Positions 20,407-38,339 of a stretch of 64,000 nucleotides of DNA are shown here, piece after piece. This stretch comes from Yersinia hibernica. Its GTDB lineage: Bacteria > Pseudomonadota > Gammaproteobacteria > Enterobacterales > Enterobacteriaceae. The number at the start of each line of letters is the position of its first letter. Positions within the stretch are counted from its first letter, which is position 1. The position numbers and the translations under genes are program-made. The stretch covers positions 4,216,001 to 4,280,000 of the forward strand of contig NZ_CP032487.1 in the NCBI RefSeq assembly GCF_004124235.1, given 5' to 3'. The notes beneath the pieces are model-generated. The model worked only from the letters and a program-made list of their open reading frames with translations, had not been told where the DNA came from and searched no databases.

Positions 20407-20470
20407 AGCAGACTCTTATTCATTGAGAAATTAACTCCGCCACAGCATCTCCTCCGGCGGATATCCGGAC

Positions 20471-21886
20471 TCAGACCGGCAATTCGCCGCGGCGGTCTTT
20501 GCGTTGATAAACCAAGATGGTCAATACCAGCGGCACGATAATCGCCACCAGCATGGCCAGTGCATAAATCGCCCAAAACTGGGGTTTGATGGACAAAATA
20601 CCCGGCAGACCACCGACTCCAATACCATTCGCCATCACCCCAGTTAGCCCGCAAATCAGGCCCGCCAGTGCAGAGCCAATCATGGCGCACAACATCGGGA
20701 AGCGGTATTTCAAGTTAATACCGTACATGGCCGGTTCCGTCACACCGAGATAGGCTGAAATCGCCGCGGGGACTGAGATCTCGCGCTCATTAATCTTACG
20801 GCTAATGATGATGATACCCAGCACCGCAGAGGCCTGCGCAATATTAGACAAAGCAATCAGCGGCCAAACCGGTGTGCCGCCCATGCTCTGAATCATCTGC
20901 ATATCAATGGCTAGTGTAGTTTGATGCACACCGGTTATGACTAACGGCGCATACAGGAAACCAAACAATGCCGCGCCAATAGGGGCGAAACTGCCGGTCA
21001 TCACCGCTTTTACCCCCCACGCCACGCCGTCACCAATCATGCGGCCAAATGGCCCAATCAAAGTATGCGCCAAGAAGACGGCCAACAGCAGGGAAACCAC
21101 CGGCACAACCACCAAATAGAGGTAAGCAGGAATAATTTTTTTCAGATTGGTTTCAATCCACCCCAGTGCTAACCCCGCCAGAATAGAGGGGATAACCTGC
21201 GCCTGATAACCCACTTTTTCAATGGTGAACCAACCGAAGTTCCATACCTCAGGAATTTGTTGCCCCAACAGATAGGAATTCATTAATTGCGGAGAAACCA
21301 GCGTAATCCCTAATACAATCCCCAATACTGGCGTGCCGCCCATTTTTTTGACGGTTGACCAACAGATAGCCACTGGCAAGTAGAAGAAGATGGCTTCGCC
21401 CAGTAACCAGAGGAAGTCGTAAATGGTCTTCCACGCCGGGTACATTTGCGCCAGCGTTTTGCCATCCGACATCGGAATATCGCCAATCACATTACGAAAA
21501 CCGAGGATCAAGCCCCCACTAATCAGCGCCGGTAACAGTGGAAAGAAGATCTCGGCAAAGTGAGAAATACCGCGCTCAAACCAGGTCATATTCTGCCGTG
21601 CGGCCAGTTTGGTTTGCTCTTTATCCACTTCATTCTGACCAATTTTGGCAATCAATGCTTTGTAGTAATCATCGACTTCCGGCCCGATAACCACTTGAAA
21701 TTGCCCGGCATTGGTAAAACAACCTTTGACCATCGACAGCTTTTCTAGCTCTTTGGCAAAGGCTTTCGACGGGTCATTTAACACAAAACGTAACCGAGTA
21801 ATGCAGTGGCTGACGGTGGCAATATTTTCTTTGCCTCCCACCAGTACGATCAATTGTTCGATATCTTGTTGTTTGACTTTGCTCAT
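20471..21886 (-). CDS. treB: PTS trehalose-specific EIIBC component
   Basis: Imports trehalose with phosphorylation to trehalose 6-phosphate; needs the cell's glucose-type EIIA because no EIIA domain is present. Seen: 471 residues; EIIB with phospho-Cys28 (SHCITRLRFVL), then an EIIC domain from about residue 105 with around ten membrane segments (PLLPALISGGLILGF, AISAYLGVTEPAMYGI). Length and order match E. coli TreB. Confidence 0.96.
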   Translation of the reverse strand: MSKVKQQDIEQLIVLVGGKENIATVSHCITRLRFVLNDPSKAFAKELEKLSMVKGCFTNAGQFQVVIGPEVDDYYKALIAKIGQNEVDKEQTKLAARQNMTWFERGISHFAEIFFPLLPALISGGLILGFRNVIGDIPMSDGKTLAQMYPAWKTIYDFLWLLGEAIFFYLPVAICWSTVKKMGGTPVLGIVLGITLVSPQLMNSYLLGQQIPEVWNFGWFTIEKVGYQAQVIPSILAGLALGWIETNLKKIIPAYLYLVVVPVVSLLLAVFLAHTLIGPFGRMIGDGVAWGVKAVMTGSFAPIGAALFGFLYAPLVITGVHQTTLAIDMQMIQSMGGTPVWPLIALSNIAQASAVLGIIIISRKINEREISVPAAISAYLGVTEPAMYGINLKYRFPMLCAMIGSALAGLICGLTGVMANGIGVGGLPGILSIKPQFWAIYALAMLVAIIVPLVLTILVYQRKDRRGELPV

Positions 21887-22202
21887 TTCAACATACCTTG
21901 CGTAAAGGTGGGGTAGGGTACTGAATTATAATGTTTTTTACAAAAATACGGCCATACTATCTTGCCCAAAAAAACAAATTAAAAATAATCGTCGGTGATA
22001 AAAAACAATATTTAATTAAATATTTAGCTATTTAAATGTTAGCTAGGTATTTATTTTTATGGAATGGGAACGTTCCCTATTTGAGTTCAAGATCACAAAT
22101 TGACAAATTTTTGTGCATTTATTCATCGGAAATCAGTCATTACCACAACGCCCTGCCACTCAACAGGAGGCGGCAGAGAGCATCACGATAGGGAAAATAG
22201 CA
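21887..22202. other. treB-treR intergenic region
   Basis: A 316-bp AT-rich stretch between treB and the end of treR. It holds the TreR-type operator (separate entry) and, close to treB, a minus-strand -10 TATAAT (plus coordinates 21925-21930) without a good -35. The sequence around 22088-22100 contains GATCACAAAT, a half CRP site at best. I see no gene. Confidence 0.5.
22066..22077. promoter_or_regulatory. TreR operator
   Basis: Perfect 12-bp palindrome GGGAACGTTCCC, the form of operator bound by the LacI-family repressor TreR in enteric bacteria. It lies about 180 bp upstream of treB and downstream of treR. Confidence 0.75.
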
Positions 22203-23150
22203 TCAAGCCAATTGACCGGGGATGATAATTTGTTGAATAGATTGGTGATTATTCAGTTGGTCAAGCAGTTGCTGTGCCGCTTGCACACCGGCACTGCCGT
22301 AACCCAGCTCCACTGATAGGCTATTAGGAAACAAGAAACTCAACAGCGGCGTATTGCCAATACCACAGACTTGGATATTTTGCTGTCCTTGCTGCTGCAA
22401 GTACTTACTTACCCCCATGGCGATGGTATCAGAGGCACAGACCAATGCTGAGGTATCCGGTTTTATCACTTGTGGTGCGAGCTGGAAGCCGCTTTGATAA
22501 CTCAATTCACCCAGCGCAACAGTCGCCGTCAAACCATATTGCTGGCAGTAATCGAGATAAGATTGATGACGACGCAAGCCGGTGGTGGCATCCGTAGGTT
22601 GCACGCCGATGTAGCTAATATGGCGATGCCCGGCCTGACGCAGTTTATCCATCAGCAACCGCACTGCGCCCTCGTCGTCATAACAAACCGAAGAAAAACC
22701 CGCATATTCGCGCGCCAATACCACCATTTTCTCCTGCCATAGCGAGAGTATTTCTGCGGTTAAGCCCGTGAAACCAAACAAAATTACGCCATCGACATGG
22801 CGCTGTTGTAATACCTGCAGATGCTCACTGACCAACTTGGGGTCAAACTGGCTCTCCATCAAAATCGGGTCGTAACCTTGCTGATAGAATAGCGGCAGCA
22901 TGGTGCGCACCGCCTGATTTTCAGACGGTGAATCCAAGCGTGAGACGATAATTCCCACCACTTTATCACTCTGCCCCCGCATGGCACGAGCTGACTTTGA
23001 CGGGGTAAAACCCTGTTGACGGATAACCGCCTCAACCCGCTCGCGAGTCAGTGGGCTGACACTGCCCTCGTTATTCAAAACCCGTGAAACGGTGGATTTT
23101 CCAACGCCACTCATGCGGGCAATGTCCTTAATGGTCAAACGGTTTTGCAT
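22203..23150 (-). CDS. treR: Trehalose operon repressor
   Basis: LacI-family repressor of treBC, induced by trehalose 6-phosphate in E. coli. Seen: 315 residues; N-terminal helix-turn-helix TIKDIARMSGVGKSTVSRVL and hinge, then a periplasmic-binding-protein-like effector domain (VVGIIVSRLDSPSENQAVRT). Same strand as treBC, 316 bp upstream, and divergent from mgtA, the E. coli gene order. Confidence 0.95.
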   Translation of the reverse strand: MQNRLTIKDIARMSGVGKSTVSRVLNNEGSVSPLTRERVEAVIRQQGFTPSKSARAMRGQSDKVVGIIVSRLDSPSENQAVRTMLPLFYQQGYDPILMESQFDPKLVSEHLQVLQQRHVDGVILFGFTGLTAEILSLWQEKMVVLAREYAGFSSVCYDDEGAVRLLMDKLRQAGHRHISYIGVQPTDATTGLRRHQSYLDYCQQYGLTATVALGELSYQSGFQLAPQVIKPDTSALVCASDTIAMGVSKYLQQQGQQNIQVCGIGNTPLLSFLFPNSLSVELGYGSAGVQAAQQLLDQLNNHQSIQQIIIPGQLA

Positions 23151-26598: not shown

Positions 26599-28527
26599 CT
26601 AAATGCGACTCAAACAATCCATCGCTATCATTTTGAAACTATCAAAATGCTGGCTACTCAATAAGCGGCTCATGGAGCGCTCGCGCACGAAGGTGACGAA
26701 CAAATCGTAAATGGCCATCGCCTCTTCATAGTCCGTTTTACTGATAGCCAGCAAGAAAATAACATGCGCGACCTCCCCCTCCCCCCAAGCAATACCTTGG
26801 GGGGCGAGCAGGGTGACCACCACGGTTTTCTTCGCTAATAAGCCCAGTGAATGTGGCAAGGCAATCCCCTCGCCCAACATGGTGGAGACGATGGCTTCCC
26901 GCTCCACAACCGAGGGGTAGAAATCCGCATCGACAAAACCCTCTTCTTCCAACTGGCCACAGACTTTCTTGAACAACTGTGCTTGCGTCATGGGCTGGTC
27001 GATAATCATAAAATGTTGGCTATCAAAGAATTTTTCCAACATGTAAGGGCGGGTGCGGTCAACTAACACCAGCTTGCCCAGCTGCTCTAGCTGATATTCG
27101 GTCGGGAAGGGTGACATCACCACCACCGGCTTGTTCTTTTCTGCCAGCCGTGAATTAGAAATAATAAAATCTTCGTCGATATGGTCGAGATTTTCGTAAT
27201 CACGCAGGGAAATCGTCTGTGTCATCACAATTTGCGGGTACTTACGCGCGATCTGCGCCTGAATCATGCGCGTGGTTGAGTTGCCGGTATCACACACCAA
27301 CATCACTTGAGGATGGCGCTGGTAACCAATATGGTAATGGCGCTCTAGGCCCACCCCAATGTGCAACACCAGATAGCCAATTTCATTCTCACTGAGACTG
27401 TAAGGGGTATATTTCCCCCAACTGGAAACCGCTGCCAATGTCACATCATAGGCCATTGGGTAATGCTGTTTAATGTTGGATAACAGTGGGTTAGGAATAG
27501 TAATCTGATACTTCACCCGGGTTATCATGGTCTTGATATGGGTGAGTAAATCAAGCCGCAGCTGCTTATCGCCCTGCAAATTATAGTTATAGTGGGTATT
27601 GATATAAGAGAGAATATAATCCACCAATGTCTCTTCGTCATCGGCGTTAATTTCACTCGGGCGACTGGTGCTAGGCTGGCTGGCCTGTACCCGGCGGGCA
27701 GCAATATTCACCCGCAAGTAAGCTTCTTCTGCGGCAGAAATATCCTTACCGGATAATAGCTTAAGTTCATTTGCCAAACGGCCAGAGGCCAATTTAACTG
27801 CCTCGTCGACATCTTCTGCATCAAAATCGGATAGCGGGTAACCGTCTGTGATGCGCTTTATCGCCACCGCGCAGTAAAAAATCAGGTATTGCTCGCCCTC
27901 ATCGGTTAACCGCACCGCGTATTGGGCAAGCAACTCATGCAGTAATCCGCTCAGTTCCGGCATGGTCTGGATACTGAGAAACTCATTTTTTAATAATGGG
28001 TTATCGGCATCTTGCAGTTGTAACTGAAACAGTAAATCCGTCAGACAGGTGCGAATGGCTAATTCCGCACCGAATAATTTCATGCCATAGCGGGGCTTGG
28101 TTTCAATGGTTAGATGGTAGCGGTTTAGCCTTTCTCTCACCTCGGCCATATCATTTTGCAATGTGCCACGGCTGACAAACCATTCATCAGCTAAATCTTC
28201 TAGCTTCAATGAAAAAGCGGAGGTCAAAAAGCGGATTAACAGATAGTGAACCCGCTCATTGGCTGTCCGTGGCGTCAGGTGCATCTTACGATTTTGCTGC
28301 TGTAGGGTACGAAAGCGGTCAGCATCCTCCACCATCAGCCGATACCCAAAACCCCGGTTATGCACAAAGTGCGCACCATAATGCTCAAGAATCTCATTCA
28401 ACGCCGTGATGTCAGCCCGGACTGTACGTGTTGAGACCGCAAAACGTTTCGCCAACTCCTCCTGAGGTAGCGTTTCCGATTGCAGCGCATCGAACATATA
28501 GGCCAGACGTTGATAGGGGAATCTCAC
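26599..28527 (-). CDS. PRD-containing transcriptional regulator with EIIB- and EIIA-like domains
   Basis: A 642-residue MtlR/BglG-like regulator. Seen, in order: N-terminal HTH (EELAKRFAVSTRTVRADI, about 20-45), a second Mga-type HTH (about 105-135), PRD1 with His197 (second usual His replaced, FYCAVAIKRI), PRD2 with His330 and His389, an EIIB-like domain with Cys412 (LVCDTGNSTT), and a C-terminal EIIA-2 domain with His559 (GIALPHSLGL). Such proteins are switched by PTS phosphorylation. It is the last gene of the minus-strand amino-sugar-acid cluster, 72 bp after the lactonase gene, and probably controls it. The inducer is unknown. Confidence 0.88.
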   Translation of the reverse strand: MRFPYQRLAYMFDALQSETLPQEELAKRFAVSTRTVRADITALNEILEHYGAHFVHNRGFGYRLMVEDADRFRTLQQQNRKMHLTPRTANERVHYLLIRFLTSAFSLKLEDLADEWFVSRGTLQNDMAEVRERLNRYHLTIETKPRYGMKLFGAELAIRTCLTDLLFQLQLQDADNPLLKNEFLSIQTMPELSGLLHELLAQYAVRLTDEGEQYLIFYCAVAIKRITDGYPLSDFDAEDVDEAVKLASGRLANELKLLSGKDISAAEEAYLRVNIAARRVQASQPSTSRPSEINADDEETLVDYILSYINTHYNYNLQGDKQLRLDLLTHIKTMITRVKYQITIPNPLLSNIKQHYPMAYDVTLAAVSSWGKYTPYSLSENEIGYLVLHIGVGLERHYHIGYQRHPQVMLVCDTGNSTTRMIQAQIARKYPQIVMTQTISLRDYENLDHIDEDFIISNSRLAEKNKPVVVMSPFPTEYQLEQLGKLVLVDRTRPYMLEKFFDSQHFMIIDQPMTQAQLFKKVCGQLEEEGFVDADFYPSVVEREAIVSTMLGEGIALPHSLGLLAKKTVVVTLLAPQGIAWGEGEVAHVIFLLAISKTDYEEAMAIYDLFVTFVRERSMSRLLSSQHFDSFKMIAMDCLSRI

Positions 28528-28559
28528 TGCTCCACTCCGTTATTCAGAATCTTAAGCGT

Positions 28560-28585
28560 CCCCCTGCCAACATAGCCGCAGGGGG
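28560..28585 (-). terminator. GC-rich hairpin between lactonase and regulator genes
   Basis: CCCCCTGC and GCAGGGGG form an 8-bp perfect stem with a 10-base loop just after the lactonase stop. No clear U-run on the minus strand, so it may reduce rather than stop transcription into the regulator gene. Confidence 0.45.
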
Positions 28586-28599
28586 CGCGTTATCTCACA

Positions 28600-29841
28600 T
28601 TATTTTTTCTGTGCGGCCGGCACAAATACCATTTGCGAGGGGCTGCCCACGGCGGTATAGCCAGGTACAAAGGTCAATTTGCCACTTTGTGGCGAGACTT
28701 TAAAGCGCGTTATGTTATCGCTACGTTGATTCATGGCGTACAAATAGTGCCCGGTGGGGTCGAGAACCAACGTGCGCGGATAATCACCACGGGTCCACAC
28801 ATCTTCTATCAGCTTAAATTCACCATCAGCCGTCACGGCAAACAGGCCAATACTGTTATGCAGGCGGTTTGCGACATACAAGAATTTGCCATCTTGCGAG
28901 AGTGTCAGGCCCGCTGCAAAGTTGGTACCACGATAGTCACTGGGCAATGATGATACAGTATGTAACTGTTTCAATGTGCCTTTTTCCGGATCTAACTGAT
29001 AGCTGGTCAGGGTTGATGCTTCTTCATTAATCAAAAATAACGTTTTGCCGTTAGGATGGAAGACAAAATGGCGCGGGCCAGCCCCCGCCGACGAGGCGCT
29101 GATAAATGGCGGAGAGTTAGGTATCAACTTGCCATTATCTGCCTCAAAGTGGTATTGATAAATTCTGTCCAGCCCCAAATCGGTGGAGAACACAAACTTG
29201 CCATTCGGTGAACTGGCGACCATATGAGCATGGGGGCCATTGTGGTCACTGATGGCAAAGCTCCCCTCTACCGCAGCCGCGGGTTTCGCGGCCCCCGCCG
29301 GGCCTTCATCTTGCTGTACGTCACTGGCATCAGAAAGTTTGCCACTGCTTTGTCGCGGGAAAACAGCCACTGAACCACTGATATAGTTGGCGACCAGCAA
29401 ATGGCTGCCCGACGGGGTTAAGGAGAGATACACCGGCCCTGCCCCCTGAGAATCAACCTGATTAATCAACGTCAAGCTGCCATCAGCCGGATTAATGCTG
29501 TAAGCGGCAATAGCACCGTGTTTGCCGCCATTATAGTCCGCGACTTCACTGGCGACATATAAGGTCTTGCCTTGATTATCCACCACCAACTGCGCCGGAT
29601 TAGCCAGTGAACTGACCAGCGTTTTCTCCGTCAATTCACCGGTTTTAGCATCAACCACTAGCCGGTAAACTCCTTCACCATTCGGGAGATAGGTTCCGAC
29701 GTAAGCAAATGATTTATTGGCAGTCTGCTCGGCGTGGGCCAGCGGATTAAACAGGGCGACCGTCGCCAAAGCGATTCCCGCTGACAGATTTTTTAAGCCA
29801 GTCAGACCGGTTAAATCAGATTCTGTTGAGCTGTTATGCAT
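28600..29841 (-). CDS. Exported lactonase-family beta-propeller protein
   Basis: A 413-residue member of the 6-phosphogluconolactonase (YbhE/carboxy-cis,cis-muconate cyclase-like) seven-bladed propeller family. Seen: AYVGTYLPNGEGVYRLVVD, HMVASSPNGKFVFSTDLGLD with RIYQYHFE, GPRHFVFHPNGKTLFLINE, and YPRTLVLDPTGHYLYAMNQ. Unlike cytoplasmic Pgl, it has an N-terminal hydrophobic segment (AGIALATVALFNPLAHA, about 21-37) with a likely signal cleavage after AHA, so it is probably periplasmic. It follows the DgaF-like aldolase gene after a 127-bp gap. Opening of an aldonolactone before uptake is a reasonable inference, not shown. Confidence 0.85.
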   Translation of the reverse strand: MHNSSTESDLTGLTGLKNLSAGIALATVALFNPLAHAEQTANKSFAYVGTYLPNGEGVYRLVVDAKTGELTEKTLVSSLANPAQLVVDNQGKTLYVASEVADYNGGKHGAIAAYSINPADGSLTLINQVDSQGAGPVYLSLTPSGSHLLVANYISGSVAVFPRQSSGKLSDASDVQQDEGPAGAAKPAAAVEGSFAISDHNGPHAHMVASSPNGKFVFSTDLGLDRIYQYHFEADNGKLIPNSPPFISASSAGAGPRHFVFHPNGKTLFLINEEASTLTSYQLDPEKGTLKQLHTVSSLPSDYRGTNFAAGLTLSQDGKFLYVANRLHNSIGLFAVTADGEFKLIEDVWTRGDYPRTLVLDPTGHYLYAMNQRSDNITRFKVSPQSGKLTFVPGYTAVGSPSQMVFVPAAQKK

Positions 29842-29901
29842 ATGGGTCCTTACTCATAGTGAACGATTATTGAATGGTATGGGTCTATTCAACTTCACCA
29901 T

Positions 29902-29925
29902 CAGAGCACCCAGCGGGGCGCTCTG
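29902..29925. repeat. Stem-loop between dgaF-like and lactonase genes
   Basis: CAGAGC and GCTCTG pair, extended inward by CCC/GGG past one mismatch, around AGCG. Sits in the 127-bp gap; no T-run on either strand. May be an intercistronic processing or weak termination structure. Confidence 0.4.
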
Positions 29926-29968
29926 GACACTGGCGGCCTATCAAGTTTTATGCTAATAAATCAGAAAG

Positions 29969-30709
29969 TTACGGCACGATTTTTTTGACGATATTCAATA
30001 AGGTTTGCACGTCTTGTGGCCGGGTATTGCCCGTTTTGCTATCAATGATTGAGCTATAGATATGTGGAATAACTTTCGTGACGCCAGCATCCAACGCGAT
30101 TTGCACAATAGCTTCGAAATTATCCAGATCAATACCGCCAGTTGGCTCCAGCCAGAAACCGGTCGCCGCGCAAGCCTCGGCCACGAAACGGTATTCATCA
30201 ATGGAATCCAACCCATTCATCGGGAAGAATTTCACCGAACTGCCGCCCATATCTTTCAGCATGGCAATGGCGGTTGTGATCGGAACAATGGCGTCTTTTT
30301 GTTGTGAACTCAGGGGGCCGGTAGAAATTTTCACATAGCCCACTTTACCAGTGGGGGAAATCAGGCCGTTGACCACCGTCTCATGCTGGCCCAGCAAGGC
30401 ACGGCTGGTGCCAACACCGGTGAAAACCTGATTCACATGTTGCGGCTGTACTTGCTGTGAAATCTGGCTGACCATCGCCGACTGCTTGGGATCACCGGCA
30501 CCCAGCCCAACCGACAAAGCATTGTCAATCAGGGCAGCATACTCACACATGTCTTTGACGGCGCTGTCGACATCCGGGTAATTCTTCGATAACACCCCCA
30601 CCAGCACATGGCCTTCAGCGGCCTGATAAATCTCGCGCGCATTGTCTTTAGAACCCGCCAGCACATTCAAACACACGCGGTCACGGTAATAATTTGGGGT
30701 CAATTTCAT
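29969..30709 (-). CDS. dgaF: DgaF-like 2-dehydro-3-deoxy-6-phosphogluconate aldolase
   Basis: A 246-residue KDGP aldolase of the DgaF family, which in Salmonella D-glucosaminate catabolism splits 2-keto-3-deoxy-6-phosphogluconate to pyruvate and glyceraldehyde 3-phosphate. Seen: FTGVGTSRALLGQHE, Lys160 in GSSVKFFPMNGL (likely Schiff-base Lys) and the phosphate-binding EPTGGIDLDNF. Begins 3 bp after the dgaE-like stop, so the two enzymes are co-translated. Family assignment is firm; the in vivo substrate rests on context. Confidence 0.85.
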   Translation of the reverse strand: MKLTPNYYRDRVCLNVLAGSKDNAREIYQAAEGHVLVGVLSKNYPDVDSAVKDMCEYAALIDNALSVGLGAGDPKQSAMVSQISQQVQPQHVNQVFTGVGTSRALLGQHETVVNGLISPTGKVGYVKISTGPLSSQQKDAIVPITTAIAMLKDMGGSSVKFFPMNGLDSIDEYRFVAEACAATGFWLEPTGGIDLDNFEAIVQIALDAGVTKVIPHIYSSIIDSKTGNTRPQDVQTLLNIVKKIVP

Positions 30710-30712
30710 CGG

Positions 30713-31825
30713 TCAGGCTCCCTTAACCAAGCGGTTAATGCAGGTGTAAATTGTCTCAAGTTGCGATGGCGTCACACTGCGCACGTCCACCTCAATCTTG
30801 CCCTCGTTAGCTTTGTAAGCACGGAAGTAAATGGCAATATCACCATTTTTGAGTGCATCGACCAAATCTAGGGCCGAGCGGCCAATTTTGGCCTCGTCAA
30901 AACTGATTTCAGTGCGGGCAATATCACGCCCCGCCGCATCCCACACCACTTTGGCTGAGACGCCGTCAATAGTATTTAACTGGCTGATGAAAGGAGCCAT
31001 TTTCTCCACCATCTGCTGGCCCGTCTCTTTCTCCAGTGTCATGTAGCTTTCAATCGCGCGGGTCAGTCCAAGAATGCCCTCCTTGCCGACTTTCATCGCC
31101 CGGCCAATGCCATTGGCTTGCAATTTCACCCAATCCACATAGGTTTTCTTGCCTAATACCAAGCCGCTGGTCGGCCCTTCAATGGCTTTGGCCCCACTGT
31201 AAATCACCAAATCCGCGCCCATGTGGTAGTAACACTGCAAATCTTCTTCTGCAGCGGCATCGACAATTAATGGCAACTGATGTTGACGCGCAATCACCAC
31301 GGCTTGTTCCACCGATAAAATGCTTTTTTGCACACAATGATGGGATTTTATATACAAGATCGCCGCAGTATTGGGTGTGATGGCCGCCTCCAGCTGTTCT
31401 GGTAGGCACTCATTGGCATAACCCGCTTCCACCACTTTACCGCCGCCTAATGTCACCATGGTATCCACCGGCGCACCAAAGTTAACATTGTGGCCTTTGG
31501 CCATAACAATTTCATGGGGCACGGTGCGCGGTGCGGCATGCAGGTTAACCAGTAAGTTAGCATTGTCTTTGACAATCACCGCCGCGACGGACTGGGCAAT
31601 CCCGGCAGAGGCGCAAGACACCACCACCGCACTTTCCACATTCAGTAAGTTCGCAATATAAGCGCCAGTTTGATTCACCAGATCTTTCATCACAAAGTAA
31701 TGATTCAGCCCCAACTCCACGGCCTCAACCACATCTTGCCGTGGCGTCGAAACCCCCAGCATCGTCATGCGGCCGGAAGCATTAATGACATGCTTTAACT
31801 GGTATTTTTCATAGACTGAAGACAT
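30713..31825 (-). CDS. dgaE: DgaE-like PLP-dependent ammonia-lyase (SelA-related)
   Basis: A 370-residue SelA-related PLP enzyme. DgaE of Salmonella converts D-glucosaminate 6-phosphate to 2-keto-3-deoxy-6-phosphogluconate and ammonia. Seen: INASGRMTMLGVSTP, AVVVSCASAGIAQSV, Asp189 in LIVDAAAEEDL and the probable PLP Lys213 in YSGAKAIEGPTSG. The start overlaps the end of the amidohydrolase gene by 17 bp. It works naturally with the DgaF-like aldolase next to it. Confidence 0.85.
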   Translation of the reverse strand: MSSVYEKYQLKHVINASGRMTMLGVSTPRQDVVEAVELGLNHYFVMKDLVNQTGAYIANLLNVESAVVVSCASAGIAQSVAAVIVKDNANLLVNLHAAPRTVPHEIVMAKGHNVNFGAPVDTMVTLGGGKVVEAGYANECLPEQLEAAITPNTAAILYIKSHHCVQKSILSVEQAVVIARQHQLPLIVDAAAEEDLQCYYHMGADLVIYSGAKAIEGPTSGLVLGKKTYVDWVKLQANGIGRAMKVGKEGILGLTRAIESYMTLEKETGQQMVEKMAPFISQLNTIDGVSAKVVWDAAGRDIARTEISFDEAKIGRSALDLVDALKNGDIAIYFRAYKANEGKIEVDVRSVTPSQLETIYTCINRLVKGA

Positions 31826-32978
31826 CTTTTAACTTCCCCTCGTCAGTTAATACTAAGTCACCGGCAACAACCGCCGCCAGTGGCACCAGGAACTTGTCAC
31901 CGGCAACCGATTTACCTTCTGAATCACTGAACACCTTAGGCTGCTGTTGCAACTCAAAAATGGTCAAATCTGCATCATAGCCCGCATCCAGCCGCCCTTT
32001 ATCCGTCAGGCGCAGAGCCTGTGCGGCATTTTCAGTCACACAGCGAATGACTTGTTCAAGACTCAGCCCGAGGGTGAAAAATTTGGACATCACCGTCGCC
32101 AGGCTATGTACTGGCCCATTTAGGCGGTTGCGACAATAAATGTCGGAGCTGATGGTGTGCGGGTAAATACCTTGCTTGATGGCAAGCTCGGCCACATCGA
32201 AACTGAAACTGGCACTGCCGTGGCCCACATCTAATAATACGCCGCGCTTTAATGCCCGCTGGATAGATTCACGTAATGCGCCGGCGGGGGTCAAAATTCG
32301 ATTTGGTTTGCCGTTATAGCAGTGAGTAATAATGTCACCTTGGGTCAGTAAGTCGGCAATTTCATCCAAGTCGGGGGGGTTATTGCCGATATGCACCATC
32401 AGTGGCAACTGATTGTTTTCTTGCTGAATTTCTTTGGCGCGCACCAATGGTTTGATACCGTTTTTACCCACTACACTGCTGCTCATTCGGGCTTTAATGC
32501 CGAGAATAAAACCGGGATTGCGGGCAATGGCTTGGCTGACACTTTGCTTATCAATCTGCGCCATATCCGCTAATTCGTTTTGCGTCACAATGCCTGTTTT
32601 CGCAATATTCAGGAAAGCATAAACATGGGTTTTGGCCGCACGGGTTAAGCGGTAAAAATCGTCGATATCATTGGCCCCGGTGCTGCCCGCGTCCACCACG
32701 GTGGTGACGCCGCTGGCAACACCGACTAAATCGGCTTCATCATGATAAATAGGTGATGCGGGGTAACAATGCACGTGAGAATCAATCCAGCCGGCACTGA
32801 GGTAGAATTTCCCAGCCAGATCCAACACTTTTTTCGCGGAATTAATCGGATATTTGGCCTGATTGTGTTTATCTTCAGAAATAACCGCGCTGACGGCGAC
32901 TATTTTTCCGTCATTAATCGCAACATCAACCTGTCGGCCGTCAACTAATAATGCCCCAGTGATAATAAAGTCATACAT
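31809..32978 (-). CDS. Amidohydrolase/deacetylase metallohydrolase
   Basis: A 389-residue amidohydrolase-superfamily enzyme. Seen: metal-binding His68-x-His70 in DSHVHCYP, MVHIGNNPPDLDEI and IITHCYNGK with further His ligands, and the catalytic Asp in TISSDIYCRNR. A Lys in ILGIKARMSSSVV may be the carbamylated metal bridge. I chose the ATG at 32978 (MYDFIITGALLVDG), with AGGAAGG before it; the 50-residue upstream extension runs through the intergenic hairpin into the previous gene. In this cluster it most plausibly removes an acyl group from an N-acyl amino-sugar acid. Substrate not established. Confidence 0.85.
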   Translation of the reverse strand: MYDFIITGALLVDGRQVDVAINDGKIVAVSAVISEDKHNQAKYPINSAKKVLDLAGKFYLSAGWIDSHVHCYPASPIYHDEADLVGVASGVTTVVDAGSTGANDIDDFYRLTRAAKTHVYAFLNIAKTGIVTQNELADMAQIDKQSVSQAIARNPGFILGIKARMSSSVVGKNGIKPLVRAKEIQQENNQLPLMVHIGNNPPDLDEIADLLTQGDIITHCYNGKPNRILTPAGALRESIQRALKRGVLLDVGHGSASFSFDVAELAIKQGIYPHTISSDIYCRNRLNGPVHSLATVMSKFFTLGLSLEQVIRCVTENAAQALRLTDKGRLDAGYDADLTIFELQQQPKVFSDSEGKSVAGDKFLVPLAAVVAGDLVLTDEGKLKDVFSL

Positions 32979-33007
32979 TATATTATACCTTCCTGACTCA
33001 ATGCCGC

Positions 33008-33047
33008 CACGAGGTAAATATTCAAATAACTGGATATTTACCTCGTG
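33008..33047. repeat. Perfect 14-bp hairpin between transporter and enzyme genes
   Basis: CACGAGGTAAATAT and its exact complement ATATTTACCTCGTG flank 12 bases, directly after the DUF4310 stop and 30 bases before the amidohydrolase start. No T-run on the minus strand, so it is likely an intercistronic RNA structure that could set different mRNA levels for transporter and enzyme halves. Confidence 0.75.
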
Positions 33048-33049
33048 TA

Positions 33050-33706
33050 TTAGGAAATGGCGACTGGGAAAATAGATCCTAAAATCATAGCGCCCAGAAT
33101 TGCACCACCGGTAATAGGTTTGTTCCACAGATAAAACAGCAATGCACCGGCTAAAGAACCAATGCCAATCGGAATGGATGCGGTAATGGCAGACAAGATA
33201 ATCAATGGCCCTAAGAAACGACCAGACGAATTACCAGCCCCCATCATGACATCAGCCCCATAAGTTGAATTACTCTGGTTAATCGTAAATTTACGCGCCA
33301 AAATAATCAGATAGCCAATCGCCAGACCAATAATCAACCCTGTCACTAACGAAGCGGTGAAATTAGCAACCGGGAAAACAAATCCGGCCCCCAATAATAA
33401 TGCCGGCACCCCCAAACCCACACCAGTTTGAATCGCCCCGCCAATATCCAAAATACCGACCAGTGAACCTTCAATAATTCGGGCGAATAAGAAGCTGGCA
33501 CCAAATGCCGCCACTGCACCATAAACTCCCGTGTCCATCCCCGCACGTAGCATTGAAACAAATGCCACTTCGTTAAATGCGCCGATACCATATAAATAAT
33601 ACATATGAGTACCTGCAAATACACCGGAGGATAATAACCCGACAAAGATCGGAAATGACCAGTCGGCATACCAGAAATTATTCTTGGTTTGTTCATCCAT
33701 CATCAA
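33050..33706 (-). CDS. DUF4310 family membrane protein
   Basis: A 218-residue integral membrane protein of the DUF4310 family, of unknown function. About six hydrophobic segments are visible, near residues 18-37, 58-80, 85-110, 113-137, 160-190 and 194-218, with a Gly-rich region ILDIGGAIQTGVGLGVP. The start has three ATG codons in a row. It lies 14 bp after DUF4311. Size and pairing recall the two-membrane-protein (C plus D) layout of mannose-type PTS transporters, but I see no sequence motif proving that relation. Confidence 0.82.
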   Translation of the reverse strand: MMMDEQTKNNFWYADWSFPIFVGLLSSGVFAGTHMYYLYGIGAFNEVAFVSMLRAGMDTGVYGAVAAFGASFLFARIIEGSLVGILDIGGAIQTGVGLGVPALLLGAGFVFPVANFTASLVTGLIIGLAIGYLIILARKFTINQSNSTYGADVMMGAGNSSGRFLGPLIILSAITASIPIGIGSLAGALLFYLWNKPITGGAILGAMILGSIFPVAIS

Positions 33707-33720
33707 GCTCCTCTCGCTGT

Positions 33721-34497
33721 TTATTTTCCGCTTAATGCATTATGAATAGCATTGAGCCACACTGGTGCATTCAGACTGAATGATTCCAGGAATTTCAGAT
33801 CGAAACCGCGGAAGAAACCACTGAGAACAAATAATAGAACAATTACTGTCATCATGATTTTAGTGACTTTATTCCAGCCGCTTTCCTCGACGCCTTTGCC
33901 AATTAAAATACCTAAAACTAGGCCTGGCACCGCGTTACCCATAATTAACTGCGCTAAGCCACCGAAAATAGTGGCCCAGAAACCAGAACGACGCCCGGCA
34001 TCAATTGCCGCTAACCAGAAAATAACTGGCATCACGGTGTTAACCAGAATATTCGCCGCAGGTACCAACACTTTAATCGCTGTCACCTGTAATGCAGCTG
34101 GCACCGCCGATGCTGTAGTATTTAAGAAACTGACAACAATAACCCCGATAATTCCGCAGGCAATGGCCATCTTTTTCGGGTTATGCATGGTTTCTGCCAC
34201 ATTGCGATTTTTAATCATCAATGCTGCAGCCCCCCAGTTAGGAATAATACGATGGTCGACATCTTGAGTAAAAGCACCTGCCGCCACTGAAGAAGCCCAG
34301 GCGTTGAAGAAAAACCCTAACCCAAAGGAGAAATGCGAAGCCGGATCACCCTCACACGAGTTCAACTCGCCCAAGGTACGAAACGCCCCCATTCCTTGTA
34401 TGGTCGGGGCGTGGAACATCCGGGCGGCCCCAACACCTACCCCCACGCCGACCAGTCCGCCGATAATAATCGACTTAAAAAGAATGATTAGAAACAT
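33721..34497 (-). CDS. DUF4311 family membrane protein
   Basis: A 258-residue membrane protein of the DUF4311 family, unknown function. Seen: an N-terminal Gly/Val-rich segment (IIIGGLVGVGVGVGAARMF), then a charged His-containing loop (DPASHFSFGLGFFFNAWASS, DVDHRIIPNWGAAAL, about 50-100), and several further membrane segments (ACGIIGVIVVSFLN, PVIFWLAAIDAGRR, MMTVIVLLFVLSGFF). The conserved-looking loop with two His and an Asp is a candidate substrate or phosphate site. Fourteen bp after DUF4312. Confidence 0.82.
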   Translation of the reverse strand: MFLIILFKSIIIGGLVGVGVGVGAARMFHAPTIQGMGAFRTLGELNSCEGDPASHFSFGLGFFFNAWASSVAAGAFTQDVDHRIIPNWGAAALMIKNRNVAETMHNPKKMAIACGIIGVIVVSFLNTTASAVPAALQVTAIKVLVPAANILVNTVMPVIFWLAAIDAGRRSGFWATIFGGLAQLIMGNAVPGLVLGILIGKGVEESGWNKVTKIMMTVIVLLFVLSGFFRGFDLKFLESFSLNAPVWLNAIHNALSGK

Positions 34498-34510
34498 CAG
34501 TATATCCTTT

Positions 34511-34807
34511 TCATTTAGATATGAAGACGACCTTATCTGTATTAATGATTGTCACACTCACGGTAATATCTAATTCAACGCTGTACGTTTTTCTTTCTCG
34601 CGGTAGGAAAAAGAATAAAAACTTTTCATTTTTTACTGATAATTCTGCTTTTAATACTTTTACGTCTTGTGGTTCGATTCTCAGTAAAATATTTTGTGTC
34701 GATTTCAACACGGTATTCTGAACATTACCGAGCGCATTAGCGAAAGCTTTACTTTGGGTATCGCCTTTACCTTTTACTTGCACCTGAGTGGTATATTGCT
34801 CTTTCAT
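34511..34807 (-). CDS. DUF4312 family small protein
   Basis: A 98-residue soluble protein of the DUF4312 family, function unknown. It contains no His and no Cys, so it cannot be a conventional phospho-carrier. Predicted alternating beta-strands (FLFFFLPRERKTYSVELDIT) suggest a small alpha/beta fold. Its start abuts the SFCGS stop with a shared base (34807), implying coupled synthesis. Confidence 0.82.
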   Translation of the reverse strand: MKEQYTTQVQVKGKGDTQSKAFANALGNVQNTVLKSTQNILLRIEPQDVKVLKAELSVKNEKFLFFFLPRERKTYSVELDITVSVTIINTDKVVFISK

Positions 34808-35172
34808 TACGGTTGACCATATTTCTTGATATAGGCTTCTACTAACTTCTGCCCTAGCTCTTCTTTATCCATAAATCCGAAGCCTAATACCTTGCAGCCT
34901 TCATTTATTGCCGTCACACCTTCCTCCACTGAACGCATGCCGTATTTTGCTTTGTAACCATATTTATTTTGCGCAGTAATAGCACCGGCACCACCACTGC
35001 CACAGAATGAAATACCGAAATCTGCTTGTTCGCTATTCATCACATCACCCAGTTTCATATCGGCAGCCACTCCGGGAATAACCACCACGCGGCCACCTGC
35101 TAATTCAACACCTTGACCTACTTTCTGGCCTTTTCCTAAACGGTCGCCAATCACTACGGTAATTTGAGTCAT
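34807..35172 (-). CDS. SFCGS family glycine-rich protein
   Basis: A 121-residue protein named for its SFCGS motif: Cys57 in FGISFCGSGGAGAITAQNKY. No His residues; a second Cys at 93 (EGCKVLGFGFMDKEE). A Cys within a Gly-rich turn after a hydrophobic strand resembles EIIB active sites in outline, but the surrounding sequence is not a known EIIB family. Alpha/beta fold expected. Function unknown; always-together cluster partner of DUF4310/4311/4312. Follows the PRD gene by 23 bp. Confidence 0.82.
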   Translation of the reverse strand: MTQITVVIGDRLGKGQKVGQGVELAGGRVVVIPGVAADMKLGDVMNSEQADFGISFCGSGGAGAITAQNKYGYKAKYGMRSVEEGVTAINEGCKVLGFGFMDKEELGQKLVEAYIKKYGQP

Positions 35173-35195
35173 AGTCTCTTCTCCAGAACAGTATT

Positions 35196-35540
35196 TTATG
35201 GGTTATTATCTTTCGCGACTTCAAAATGCACCGACAACAGATATGCTTCTTCAATGGGTAAATTGGCAAATTTATTGACCACTTGCTGAGCCATTTGCAT
35301 CGAATGTGCTGAAATCTCATCAAATAATGATTTATCCACTTCGGGTAATGGCTCGCCGGTTATTGCGCGCAGCACCATAGCCCGAATATGTGATGTCAAC
35401 ATTTGCTGTTGAACAGCATTGGTGAAAATATTTTCGGCATTTAACATCGCGGTAATTTCAGCTAATACCCGCTCAGTGATGATAATTGCCTCTTCCATTC
35501 CAGGGTTCTCGGCTGCATTCAATGCGGCTACATCATTCAC
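35196..35540 (-). CDS. Stand-alone PRD protein
   Basis: A 114-residue protein made of a single PTS-regulation-domain-like unit. Seen: His51 (TSHIRAMVLRAITGE) and His105 (EEAYLLSVHFEVAK), at the positions of the two phosphorylatable PRD histidines. It has no DNA- or RNA-binding domain. The start is GTG at 35540, supported by AGAGG about 10 bases upstream; the first ATG is 14 codons later. First gene of the minus-strand cluster. Likely a phosphorylation-dependent sensor or a phosphate carrier for the adjacent transporter; that role is inference. Confidence 0.82.
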   Translation of the reverse strand: MNDVAALNAAENPGMEEAIIITERVLAEITAMLNAENIFTNAVQQQMLTSHIRAMVLRAITGEPLPEVDKSLFDEISAHSMQMAQQVVNKFANLPIEEAYLLSVHFEVAKDNNP

Positions 35541-35949
35541 GCTGGCAATCCTCTATTCCTTGCTGCTAACACTCTCTGACTGCAAAGATAAGTTCAGTTA
35601 TTTATCCGTCATCCCTTGCCTCTGCGCTATAACATCACCCTACCTGCAAGCGGAATGGGTGTGTAGCGGCATTTTTTCCAGTTCAAAGTGGAAATGTAAT
35701 GGGCTGGGGGGATCACTTTCGCAAAATAGGCATGTTAGATAGCTAACTTAATCATTAACAACAAAATAACTTTTATATAAATGCACCGTGAAAGCCTGCG
35801 GTGGAAAAAAGTTCGTGATCCGGATCTCTTTCCTTTCTTGTCGGAAGAGCCTAATATCAGATTAATATTAAGCTATTTTCTAACACCCCCTCTCCTATGG
35901 CGTGGGGGTGTTGTTTTTATGTTTTGCTGAAATTGAATTGGAGAGTGGT
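35541..35949. other. Divergent regulatory region, PRD operon / rnk
   Basis: A 409-bp gene-free region between the divergent PRD cluster and rnk. Candidate elements: a CRP-like site CGTGATCCGGATCTCT (35814-35829) centred on the palindrome GATCCGGATC; a minus-strand extended -10 TGTTATAGC (plus 35626-35634); a small inverted repeat GTTAGATAGCTAAC near 35734-35747; and the rnk leader terminator (separate entry). None of the promoters is strong by eye. I see no credible ORF. Confidence 0.45.
35882..35917 (+). terminator. rnk leader terminator (putative attenuator)
   Basis: AACACCCCC and GGGGGTGTT form a 9-bp stem with a 13-base loop, followed by GTTTTT, ending 33 bases before the rnk ATG and pointing into rnk. 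A terminator inside the leader of the gene it precedes indicates attenuation. A rnk leader with a premature terminator is a known predicted RNA element of gamma-proteobacteria. Confidence 0.75.
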
Positions 35950-36360
35950 ATGACCAAGCCAACCATCACGATTAACGAGCTGGATGCTGAACGTTTGGAT
36001 GCGTTACTGGCGCAACCGGCTTTTGCTGGTTCTGTGGTCGCAACAGCGCTCAACGAAGAACTGGATCGTGCAGAAATTCTGCCCCCGAATGCTATCCCGG
36101 CAGATGTGGTGACCATGAATAGCCGCGTGCGTTTTCGTGACCTGAATAGCCAGGAAGAACATATTCGCACCTTGGTTTATCCGGCATCACTGAAAGACAG
36201 TAACGAGCAACTATCAGTGATGGCACCTTTAGGTGCTGCATTGTTGGGGTTGCATGTTAATGACGAAATTAGTTGGAAATTGCCGGGTGGGGATGAAGCC
36301 CGCATTACCGTGCTGGAATTGCTTTACCAGCCGGAAGCTGCCGGTGAGTATCACCGCTAG
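35950..36360 (+). CDS. rnk: Nucleoside diphosphate kinase regulator Rnk
   Basis: A 136-residue GreA/GreB-like protein that binds RNA polymerase but lacks the long coiled coil needed for transcript cleavage. Seen: [20 protein letters not shown] at the N terminus and the FKBP-like C-terminal domain ([20 protein letters not shown]). The ATG at 35950 has GGAGAG upstream. Another in-frame ATG at 35902 lies inside the leader terminator and is unlikely. Confidence 0.93.
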
Positions 36361-36376
36361 TTATTCCTCAAAGCCT

Positions 36377-36409
36377 TTGGCGTTACAGCTAGCAGTGCTG
36401 TAACGCCAA
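36377..36409. terminator. Bidirectional hairpin between rnk and cybC
   Basis: TTGGCGTTACAGC and GCTGTAACGCCAA form a perfect 13-bp stem around a 7-base loop in the 64-bp gap between convergent stops. No long T-run, but it is well placed to terminate both genes. Confidence 0.65.
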
Positions 36410-36424
36410 GTGCGAGGGGTGCGA

Positions 36425-36811
36425 TTAGCGGTATTTTTTGTGGTAAGTATCGCGAGTCGGTTTAAAGTCTTGTGCGGCCTTTTTAGCGTCATCTAACTTG
36501 CCCTGATCAGCTAATGCCAGCGCGCCATCAATTTGCCCAATTAATAAATCCAAACCGTGGCGGAAGTCTTTAACTTCGGGGCTATCTGCAGCTTTGTCTT
36601 TTAACTTGGTGGGGATCCCTCGCTGTGCATCCTGTGCCGCCACCCGCATCGCCTGTAAACCTTGTTTGATAACATCGGTTGAGTCAGCTTTCAGCACTTT
36701 GCCGTAATTCTCCGCGATAGTATCCATGTTATCGGCCACACTGGCCGCCATTGCTAGACTGCTGGCACTGAGTAATGCCGCCGCGATTAATGCCATGATT
36801 GTCTTGCCCAT
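36425..36811 (-). CDS. cybC: Cytochrome b562
   Basis: Periplasmic four-helix-bundle haem protein of unknown physiological role. Seen: 128 residues; signal peptide ending MAA, mature ASVADNMDTIAENYGKVL with the haem ligand Met7, the conserved SPEVKDFRHGLDLLIGQID, and the second ligand His near the C terminus (RDTYHKKYR). Both ligands are present, so haem binding should be intact. A Fur-box-like sequence lies just upstream. Confidence 0.93.
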   Translation of the reverse strand: MGKTIMALIAAALLSASSLAMAASVADNMDTIAENYGKVLKADSTDVIKQGLQAMRVAAQDAQRGIPTKLKDKAADSPEVKDFRHGLDLLIGQIDGALALADQGKLDDAKKAAQDFKPTRDTYHKKYR

Positions 36812-36836
36812 TTGCGTTCCTTATAATTATTGTTTA

Positions 36837-36855
36837 GTTAATGATTATCGTTGAT
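36837..36855. promoter_or_regulatory. Fur-box-like site upstream of cybC
   Basis: GTTAATGATTATCGTTGAT reads on the minus strand as ATCAACGATAATCATTAAC, 14 of 19 matches to the Fur consensus GATAATGATAATCATTATC, with the central GATAATCATTA perfect. It sits 26-44 bp upstream of the cybC ATG, overlapping the expected -35 area. Confidence 0.5.
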
Positions 36856-36948
36856 ACATTGCTCCTACTTAACATAGGCAATAGAAAACCAAACTGACAA
36901 TAATTTTTTGTCATCGGCTGAAAAATGGGCGTGGGTGGGATTTTGGCC

Positions 36949-36976
36949 AAAAAAAAGCTGGCAATAGATGCCAGCC
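36949..36976 (-). terminator. Rho-independent terminator after pmbA
   Basis: On the minus strand GCTGGC and GCCAGC form a 6-bp stem (7-base loop) followed by eight T residues, 22 bp after the pmbA stop. A canonical terminator that separates pmbA from cybC. Confidence 0.88.
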
Positions 36977-36998
36977 TTAGTTCCACAGCAACACCCTA

Positions 36999-38339
36999 TT
37001 ATTCGCCAGCAATCTTCATGGCAGGTAATAAAATAGAGCCGCACTGAATGTTACTGCGGGTTTCGATATCGCTGCCGATACTGACGATATTGCGCAGCAT
37101 ATCTTGCAAGTTACCGGCGATAGTTATCTCACTGACCGGATATTGAATTTCACCGTTTTCAACCCAGAAACCGGCGGCACCCCGGGAATAATCCCCAGTC
37201 ACCGTGCTAACCCCTTGGCCCATCAATTCGGTCACCACCAGGCCTTTATCCAGCTGCTTGAGCATGCCGGCAAAATCCTGGCCCTGGCCGGCAATGCGCC
37301 AGTTATGAATGCCACCCGCATGCCCGGTGCTTTGTAGCCCCAATTTACGGGCAGAATAGCTGGTCAGCAGATAGGTTTGCAGCACCCCATCCTTGACGAT
37401 TTCGCGTTGCAATGTGCGCACGCCTTCACTGTCAAATGGCGTCGAAGCAAGGCCGCGCAATAAATGCGGATGTTCTTCGATAGTCAGCCACTCGGGTAAA
37501 ATCTGCTTGCCAAGGTGGTCGAGCAAGAAAGTGGATTTACGGTAAATATTGCCACCGCTGATAGCAGAAACCAAATGACCAAACAGACCGGTAGCGACTT
37601 CTGCGGCAAACAGCACCGGCGACTGCATAGTGGGCAGCTTACGGGGTGACAAACGCGATAAAGTACGGCGGGCACACTCTGCACCGACCCATTCAGGGCT
37701 GGCTAAATCTTCCATTCGGCGGCCAATGGTATAGGCGTAATCCCGCTCCATATCGCCACCGTGTTCAGCAATCACACTGCTGGAAAGGGAATGGCGGCTT
37801 GAACAGTAGCTTTGCAACATACCGTGGCTATTGCCGAAAACTTTGATGCCATAATGGCTGTTAAAGCTGCCGCCCTCGGTATTGGTAATACGTTTATCTG
37901 CTTGTAATGCTGCTTGTTCTGCACGTGCCGCCAGCAAGATTCCCTGCTCAGCATCCAAATCACTCGGATGGAACAAATCTAAATCTGGCGCATCAAAGGC
38001 CAGCAAAGATTTTTCAGCCGGGCCTGCATAAGGGTCTGGTGAAGTATAACGGGCGATATCCAGTGCCGCCTGTACCGTACGGGCGACGGCATCTGGGTTT
38101 AAGTCGGTGGTGGACGCGCTGCCTTTACGCTGCTGGTGATAGACCGTGATCCCCAGCGCACCATCACTGTTGAATTCCACGTTTTCCACTTCACCAAAGC
38201 GAGTGCTAACACTGATTCCGGTGGTTTTGCTGACGGCAACTTCGGCCGCATCAGAACCCGCGCGGGCCAATTCCAACGCCTGTGCGACAGCGTGTTCCAG
38301 CGTGTTACGCTGTTGTGCAACTTGAGTGACTACTTTCAT
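36999..38339 (-). CDS. pmbA: Metalloprotease subunit TldE (PmbA)
   Basis: Partner of TldD in a heterodimeric metalloprotease that processes microcin B17 and degrades CcdA-type unfolded peptides; also called TldE. Seen: 446 residues from the ATG at 38339 ([20 protein letters not shown]); [18 protein letters not shown] and [17 protein letters not shown] near the C terminus. It lacks the HExxxH zinc motif, as expected for TldE. Upstream in-frame codons to 38471 run through the divergent promoter region and were not used. TldD lies about 7.5 kb away. Confidence 0.94.

Follow-up and report, generated by a model that had tools for sequence, protein, structure and literature searches.

The window analysed here, a 64,000-nucleotide stretch of Yersinia hibernica DNA (assembly GCF_004124235.1, contig NZ_CP032487.1, positions 4,216,001 to 4,280,000), carries on its minus strand a cluster of ten genes running from position 26599, the end of a regulator gene, to 35540, the start of a gene for a PRD-only protein. 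All ten open reading frames were found, on this strand and at the limits given in a preliminary description of the sequence. The gene order is PRD, SFCGS, DUF4312, DUF4311, DUF4310, EF_0837-type deacetylase, DgaE, DgaF, lactonase and PRD/EIIA regulator, and we refer to the first five genes, a candidate importer, as the DUF set and to the three enzymes that follow as the trio. Packing is tight, with overlaps of 1 base between the DUF4312 and SFCGS genes and of 17 bases between the deacetylase and DgaE genes. The deacetylase frame as listed (31809-33128) is too long, the homologous protein beginning at the M at 32978, and DUF4310 starts with an ATG at about 33703 that is preceded by GAGGAG. Seven NCBIfam models (TIGR03582, TIGR03577, TIGR03578, TIGR03580, TIGR03579, TIGR03583 and TIGR03581) were matched above their curated cut-offs within this one cluster, which thus has the same set of genes as the equivalogs EF_0829-EF_0839 and AHA_3910-AHA_3917. 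Six of the seven models have descriptive or hypothetical names and none names a substrate; the E. faecalis set adds EIIC, MupG and a kinase. Pfam searches returned Gly_rich_SFCGS, DUF4312, DUF4311, DUF4310, KDGP_aldolase and Lactonase, as well as HTH_11, Mga, PRD and EIIA_2 in the regulator.

Genes of the cluster, in gene order, with positions in the window (PLP, pyridoxal phosphate)
Feature	Position	Strand	Models, residues and remarks
EF_0829-type PRD-only protein, 114 amino acids	35196..35540	-	TIGR03582; H51 and H105 candidate phospho-acceptors
SFCGS protein, 121 amino acids	34807..35172	-	TIGR03577, PF14272; C57; candidate small soluble component, EIIB-like or RpiB-like
DUF4312 protein, 98 amino acids, soluble	34511..34807	-	TIGR03578, PF14189; without hydrophobic segment
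DUF4311 membrane protein, 258 amino acids, candidate permease subunit	33721..34497	-	TIGR03580, PF14188; hydrophobic segments
DUF4310 membrane protein, 218 amino acids, candidate permease subunit	33050..33706	-	TIGR03579, PF14187; hydrophobic segments
EF_0837-type metallohydrolase, probable N-deacetylase	31809..32978	-	TIGR03583, NF006689; solved relatives 8wzy, 2ics, 2ogj
DgaE-type PLP ammonia-lyase	30713..31825	-	TIGR01437; K213, H163, R304, R335, R349; solved relative 7lc0/7lce
DgaF-type 2-dehydro-3-deoxy-phosphogluconate aldolase	29969..30709	-	NF047796, TIGR03581; solved relative 3lm7
Seven-bladed lactonase, accessory, not core	28600..29841	-	PF10282; signal-peptide-like N-terminus (read by eye)
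Regulator with HTH, Mga, PRD and EIIA domains	26599..28527	-	Pfam; EIIB-like stretch by visual reading

One genome per species was scanned for 84,980 species. This yielded 494 stretches containing a relative, and the best 80 of them, all from Enterobacterales, form the set of DUF-type loci used below. All nine core genes were present in 78 of the 80, the exceptions (L066 and L123) being short and cut off by the end of their contig, indicating that the gene order is conserved far beyond chance. The view of the ten genes as one unit therefore holds for nine of them, the lactonase, found in 30/80 loci, lying outside the core. Median identity to the window was 90% for DUF4311 (82 loci) and DUF4310 (80 loci), 82% for SFCGS, 77% for DgaF, 76% for DgaE, 70% for both regulator and lactonase, 68% for DUF4312, 67% for the deacetylase and 62% for the PRD protein, which suggests that the membrane pair and SFCGS are under stricter conservation than the enzymes.

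The closest described relative of the enzyme part is Salmonella dgaABCDEF, which, according to PMC9529869, encodes a D-glucosaminate pathway with a mannose-family phosphotransferase system (PTS). Its ammonia-lyase and aldolase families are those of the window cluster, but it imports through a mannose-family EIIA-B-C-D and has no deacetylase, whereas the window combines the DUF set with a deacetylase and a PRD/EIIA regulator. Among 198 genomes of the window's family we found 18 second copies of the aldolase gene, all 18 in such dga-like clusters with mannose-type EIIA, B, C and D and DgaE, and within 15 kb none of them had a match to the deacetylase or to any of three PfkB kinases. In the DUF-type loci, by comparison, deacetylase, DgaE, DgaF and regulator occurred together in 78/80, with a single match to the mannose EIIB query and none to EIIA, EIIC or EIID, and Pfam detected no mannose-family EIIABCD domain in the ten window proteins. 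Gene context thus supports the proposal that the DUF set takes the place of a mannose-type PTS in parallel DgaE/DgaF clusters. Since the deacetylase accompanies the DUF set but was not found in the mannose-PTS clusters, the substrate of the DUF set should be the N-acylated form. All 18 mannose-PTS clusters lie in genomes that also have DUF4311.

Exchange of the importer is accompanied by a pattern in the kinases. With the three PfkB queries, run over about 20 kb per DUF-type locus, we obtained no match in any of the 80 loci, a search limited to linked genes and to this kinase family, and no kinase is listed in the Klebsiella or Bartonella clusters. L. paracasei, with mannose PTS, DgaE and DgaF, likewise has no kinase in its (incomplete) gene table. 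Priestia, on the other hand, has the same trio as the window together with a gluconate:H+ symporter and a PfkB sugar kinase in place of the DUF set, and C. difficile and Niallia combine EIIC, MupG, trio and kinase; L. plantarum, for which PMC9019972 lists EIIC, a DUF871 protein and DgaE under adjacent locus tags, seems to resemble the latter context. The earlier statement that the cluster lacks a kinase is therefore supported for linked PfkB genes, symporter-type and MupG-type contexts carrying one. On our reading, a linked kinase is found where the importer leaves the sugar acid unphosphorylated, and the DUF set would fall into the phosphorylating class; the non-DUF Bacillota contexts amount to four records, so that this rule rests mainly on the mannose-PTS and DUF-type sets.

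The enzymes point in the same direction. In the deacetylase H69, H71, K163, H197, H220 and D280 (numbering from one residue before M), which we take to be the metal ligands of amidohydrolases, are invariant in 81/81 sequences. DgaE matches TIGR01437 (588.9 bits, cut-off 385.3) but not the narrower DGL model NF047797 (363.9 vs 600), and DgaF, whose K160 is present in 79/80 sequences, matches the KDPG (2-keto-3-deoxy-phosphogluconate) aldolase model NF047796 (399.4 vs 300). For DGL, PMC9529869 places the 6-phosphate near Arg301, Arg332 and Arg346 by manual docking and names His163 as proton donor; these arginines correspond to R304, R335 and R349 here, mapped via the mannose-PTS DgaE rows, most of which are shifted by one. 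The catalytic lysine is Lys217 in the same source and 212-213 in the DgaE rows, which we regard as a matter of numbering. All three arginines are kept in 80/80 DUF-type, 19/19 mannose-PTS and 3/3 kinase-type sequences as well as in the E. faecalis row. By contrast, in six distant DgaE homologues (36-38% identity), whose stretches of 9-15 kb contain no match to KDGP aldolase, R349 is replaced by Cys and R300 by Asn in five of six. The retained phosphate-site arginines point to a 6-phosphorylated substrate of DgaE, and hence to phosphorylation before DgaE rather than after it as in the ong route discussed below. Stops interrupt the KDGP aldolase frame of the E. faecalis record (L040:18570-19325).

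Within the DUF set, two proteins contain invariant residues that could carry a phosphoryl group. With 19.7 bits the PRD-only protein stays under the Pfam PRD cut-off of 23; its H51 and H105 are present in 79/79 distinct sequences, and both also in the Bartonella copy outside that set. C57 of SFCGS is conserved in 66/66 distinct sequences. SFCGS resembles the LacAB_RpiB and DUF2620/YhfU families weakly and below cut-off; as a single sequence it found RpiB among solved structures at E 0.24, and its profile gave against the PDB a single chance-level match, a nitrogenase, with RpiB absent from the list. The DUF4312 profile likewise remained at chance level against the PDB. For DUF4311 and DUF4310 we obtained no match above cut-off to any transporter family, EIIC families other than the mannose type having been compared through Pfam only. 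In the regulator H330, H389 and H559 are present in 78/78 sequences and C412 in 73/78. Two further similarities were set aside: SFCGS as a mannose EIIB (DRLGKGQ vs DRLIHGQ) gave P 0.053 with Lys at what is presumably the phospho-His position and is a lead only, and a likeness of DUF4311 to DUF2232, seen in 71 of 85 members (best E 0.00036), comes from members that are not independent, the window's own match being under the cut-off.

A similar layout exists in the E. coli operon yhfSTU-php-yhfWXYZ, which, like the window cluster, combines a PRD-only protein (YhfY), a small Cys protein (YhfU), a membrane protein (YhfT), a hydrolase, here of the phosphotriesterase family, and PLP-type enzymes. 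Profiles of the window PRD protein and YhfY match with P 2.7e-4 and a probability of 42%, both proteins being just below the Pfam PRD cut-off, and YhfY lacks the second His present in the window protein. SFCGS and YhfU match only weakly (P 0.0025, probability 11.8%), and RpiB is also among the sub-threshold matches of YhfU. We therefore regard the yhf operon as a parallel arrangement, YhfT having no detectable homology to DUF4310/4311. The genome of the window also contains a gene of the yhfT type next to one for YhfU (L139, 3446386-3447654).

A link to the PTS is found on the Bartonella plasmids HY406 and HY761, where the genes from PRD to regulator are followed, 64 bases on, by a gene for an HPr-EI fusion (HPr and PEP-utilisers N, mobile and C domains). 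The stretches, 14.2 and 21.6 kb long, list no EIIA, B or C besides that of the regulator, and the fusion may supply either the importer or the regulator, or serve both. Its best other match, about 55% identical, comes from Caballeronia grimmiae and adjoins a glucose EIIBC, which identifies the Bartonella protein as a PTS part of the sugar type. In that Caballeronia record a long ptsP of the HPr-EI type lies directly beside the glucose EIIBC (L153:8482-12854).

Taken together, the context swap, the kinase pattern, the DgaE arginines and the Bartonella HPr-EI, along with the match of DgaF to the KDPG aldolase model and the invariant His (PRD protein, regulator) and Cys (SFCGS) residues, argue for the DUF set being a PTS-dependent importer of an N-acylated 2-aminoaldonate, a reading in which we infer transport, phosphorylation and substrate alike from sequence and gene context, and whose probability we put somewhat above even, at roughly 0.55. 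The central proposal of the preliminary description is in this way supported in part, by the first three of these lines. The substrate would be an N-acylated 2-amino-2-deoxy-aldonate, most likely N-acetyl-D-glucosaminate, which PRD, SFCGS, DUF4312, DUF4311 and DUF4310 would import in dependence on the phosphoenolpyruvate (PEP) phosphotransferase system and deliver as the 6-phosphate. The deacetylase would take off the acetyl group and DgaE the ammonia, giving KDPG, which DgaF would split into pyruvate and glyceraldehyde 3-phosphate; the lactonase, where present, may open an aldonolactone outside the cytoplasm. This chain of deacetylase, ammonia-lyase and KDPG aldolase fits N-acetyl-D-glucosaminate 6-phosphate, and the trio probably degrades the substrate for carbon and nitrogen. 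The putative phosphoryl relay would lead from PEP via EI and HPr to the PRD histidines and/or the EIIA of the regulator, and could end with C57 of SFCGS phosphorylating the substrate while it is bound to DUF4310/4311. Much more tentatively, the DUF set may form a new class of PTS permease, with DUF4310/4311 as a two-part carrier unrelated to known EIIC, a PRD domain turned phosphocarrier in the EIIA role, the RpiB-like Cys protein SFCGS in the EIIB role and the yhf operon as a second branch built on another membrane protein. As a PTS permease, the DUF set would add a class to a system regarded as well catalogued, and a phosphorylated route for an amino-sugar acid.

Several observations weigh against a PTS-dependent importer of this substrate. 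None of the five DUF-set proteins contains a recognisable EIIA, EIIB or EIIC domain by Pfam, the only EIIA being that of the regulator. Hhalign gave no detectable relation of DUF4311 or DUF4310 to mannose EIIC/EIID (P 0.03-0.78 over short stretches) or to YhfT (E 0.18-0.39), with very shallow profiles (effective number about 1.4) that make this an absence of signal, and a profile search found no related solved structure. The Bartonella plasmids are near-identical in the cluster part and count as one event, and their HPr-EI could serve the regulator alone. E. faecalis has DUF set, EIIC, MupG, deacetylase, DgaE and PfkB kinase in one cluster and is the one case against a clean kinase/importer rule, in addition to the scope of the kinase search given above. 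One of the distant DgaE homologues (L177) keeps all four arginines without a linked aldolase match, and the phosphate site of DGL was placed by manual docking. Genes for lytic polysaccharide monooxygenases (LPMOs), finally, do not track DUF4311, which is present in 22/37 genomes with LPMO and 74/161 others of the 198 (p = 0.15; 22/37 vs 73/161, again p = 0.15, without the weak match in G1145).

The pathway logic may also be right and the substrate another one, that is, a different 2-acylamino-aldonate or an acylated 2-hydroxy acid, for instance a hexosaminate epimer or a disaccharide acid, and not N-acetyl-D-glucosaminate; we consider this possible, though unlikely. Relatives of EF_0837 (COG3964) reportedly cleave acetyl esters of (R)-2-hydroxy acids, and the failure of DgaE to reach the DGL model, the combination of MupG and EIIC in Bacillota, which points to a glycoside entry route, and the lack of a significant LPMO link all agree with such a substrate. 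It is countered by the match of DgaF to the KDPG model, by catalytic and phosphate residues of DgaE that equal those of the mannose-PTS DgaE group, and by the gluconate-family symporter that accompanies the same trio in Priestia and suggests an aldonate. We likewise doubt that the DUF set imports the same acid without phosphorylation, with an unlinked kinase acting inside the cell and PRD, SFCGS and HPr-EI being regulatory only. In favour of this model, a PRD/EIIA regulator would by itself be expected to depend on phosphate from HPr, and the Bartonella fusion might need no further explanation; E. faecalis has a kinase in the same cluster as the DUF set, and the lack of recognised EII domains is as the model would have it. 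Against it stand the absence of PfkB matches from all 80 DUF-type loci, compared with their presence in symporter- and MupG-type contexts, and the phosphate-site arginines of DgaE, which do not suit a KDG kinase downstream of this enzyme. Quite improbable is a role of DUF4310/4311 as a membrane sensor or scaffold that informs the PRD proteins of a substrate imported by an unlinked permease, as PRD proteins are regulatory elements elsewhere and the pair matches no transporter family above cut-off, but dedicated transporter genes occupy the position of the DUF set in parallel clusters, no part of the cluster is more conserved than the membrane pair and the nine-gene core holds no other transporter.

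The route proposed for the PTS-dependent importer and the trio can be compared with the ong pathway of Pseudoalteromonas, which, as described in PMC9537276, takes GlcNAc1A, an oxidised chitin monomer, through deacetylation and deamination to a KDPG end point. These steps are common to both, but in ong OngB is D-aminoacylase-like, OngC and then KdgK act on unphosphorylated intermediates and import is by an SSS symporter. Neither a linked KdgK kinase nor an SSS symporter is among the ten window genes, and the window deacetylase belongs to the EF_0837 family.

The lactonase, putatively exported, would fit a lactone from C1 oxidation, and the genome of the window has two LPMO_10 matches. Two genomes of the same genus (G016 and G019), however, have the cluster and no LPMO match, and LPMO-derived chitin as a general substrate source is not supported, there being no significant co-occurrence. 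The substrate may be supplied by other organisms, the gut or plants. The E. faecalis ef_0839 promoter, or that of its twin ef_2975, was recovered in an in-vivo-expression screen in urine (PMC2912369). For Aeromonas rivuli and A. bestiarum, PMC11653859 reports LPMOs but at most distant matches to OngB and OngC; if our reading is correct, the DUF cluster would be a candidate answer to these missing enzymes, and a DUF4310 protein named Aeromonas rivuli exists.

The cluster is common in the window's family and rare in wider samples. DUF4311 was found in 22 of 24 other genomes of the genus, and among the 198 family genomes 96 match PF14188 and 96 PF07071, 95 being common to both. The two remaining cases are DUF4311 alone as a 27-bit partial match (G1145) and the aldolase alone below cut-off (G1195), and fragmented matches suggest that at least three of the 95 genomes (G1068, G1150, G1196) probably carry a broken copy of one of the genes or of both. 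Despite this frequency, our literature search found no paper naming DUF4310, DUF4311 or DUF4312, and nothing on the function of the proteins. In a draw across the phylum DUF4311 occurred in 7/299 genomes, the window's own included and all within its family, in a draw across the class in 1/369, the window itself, and in a draw centred on G066 (same phylum, outside the window's class, taken as Alphaproteobacteria) in 0/385. Relatives carry the names Klebsiella, Salmonella, Serratia, Pantoea, Erwinia, Enterococcus and lactobacilli, and the spread in Bacillota is patchy, with proteins named Enterococcus, Carnobacterium, Companilactobacillus, Lactiplantibacillus and Parageobacillus. The viral contigs searched gave no match, and a DNA search with DUF4311 found none in E. 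coli genomes. An E. coli control match to PF14188, first read as YhfT, was dropped because similar weak matches in two relatives fall in a protein that is presumably DjlA-like. In G1222 DUF4311 is matched twice, on different contigs (C38 and C39), the second match being partial (307.9 bits), and Aeromonas caviae KAM479 shows an apparent internal deletion (L179:9789-10343), the DUF4310 match ending at residue 43 and the next match lying inside DgaF.

In the window the cluster adjoins cybC and pmbA (26599-38336), at a site that looks old. Within the stretches of 83 loci, the 80 genome loci and L040, L041 and L043, pmbA was found in 75 and cybC in 66. The region at 18745-23150 contains what are presumably a trehalose-type EIIBC, a hydrolase and a LacI-type regulator, upstream of a gene that we take to be MgtA-like.

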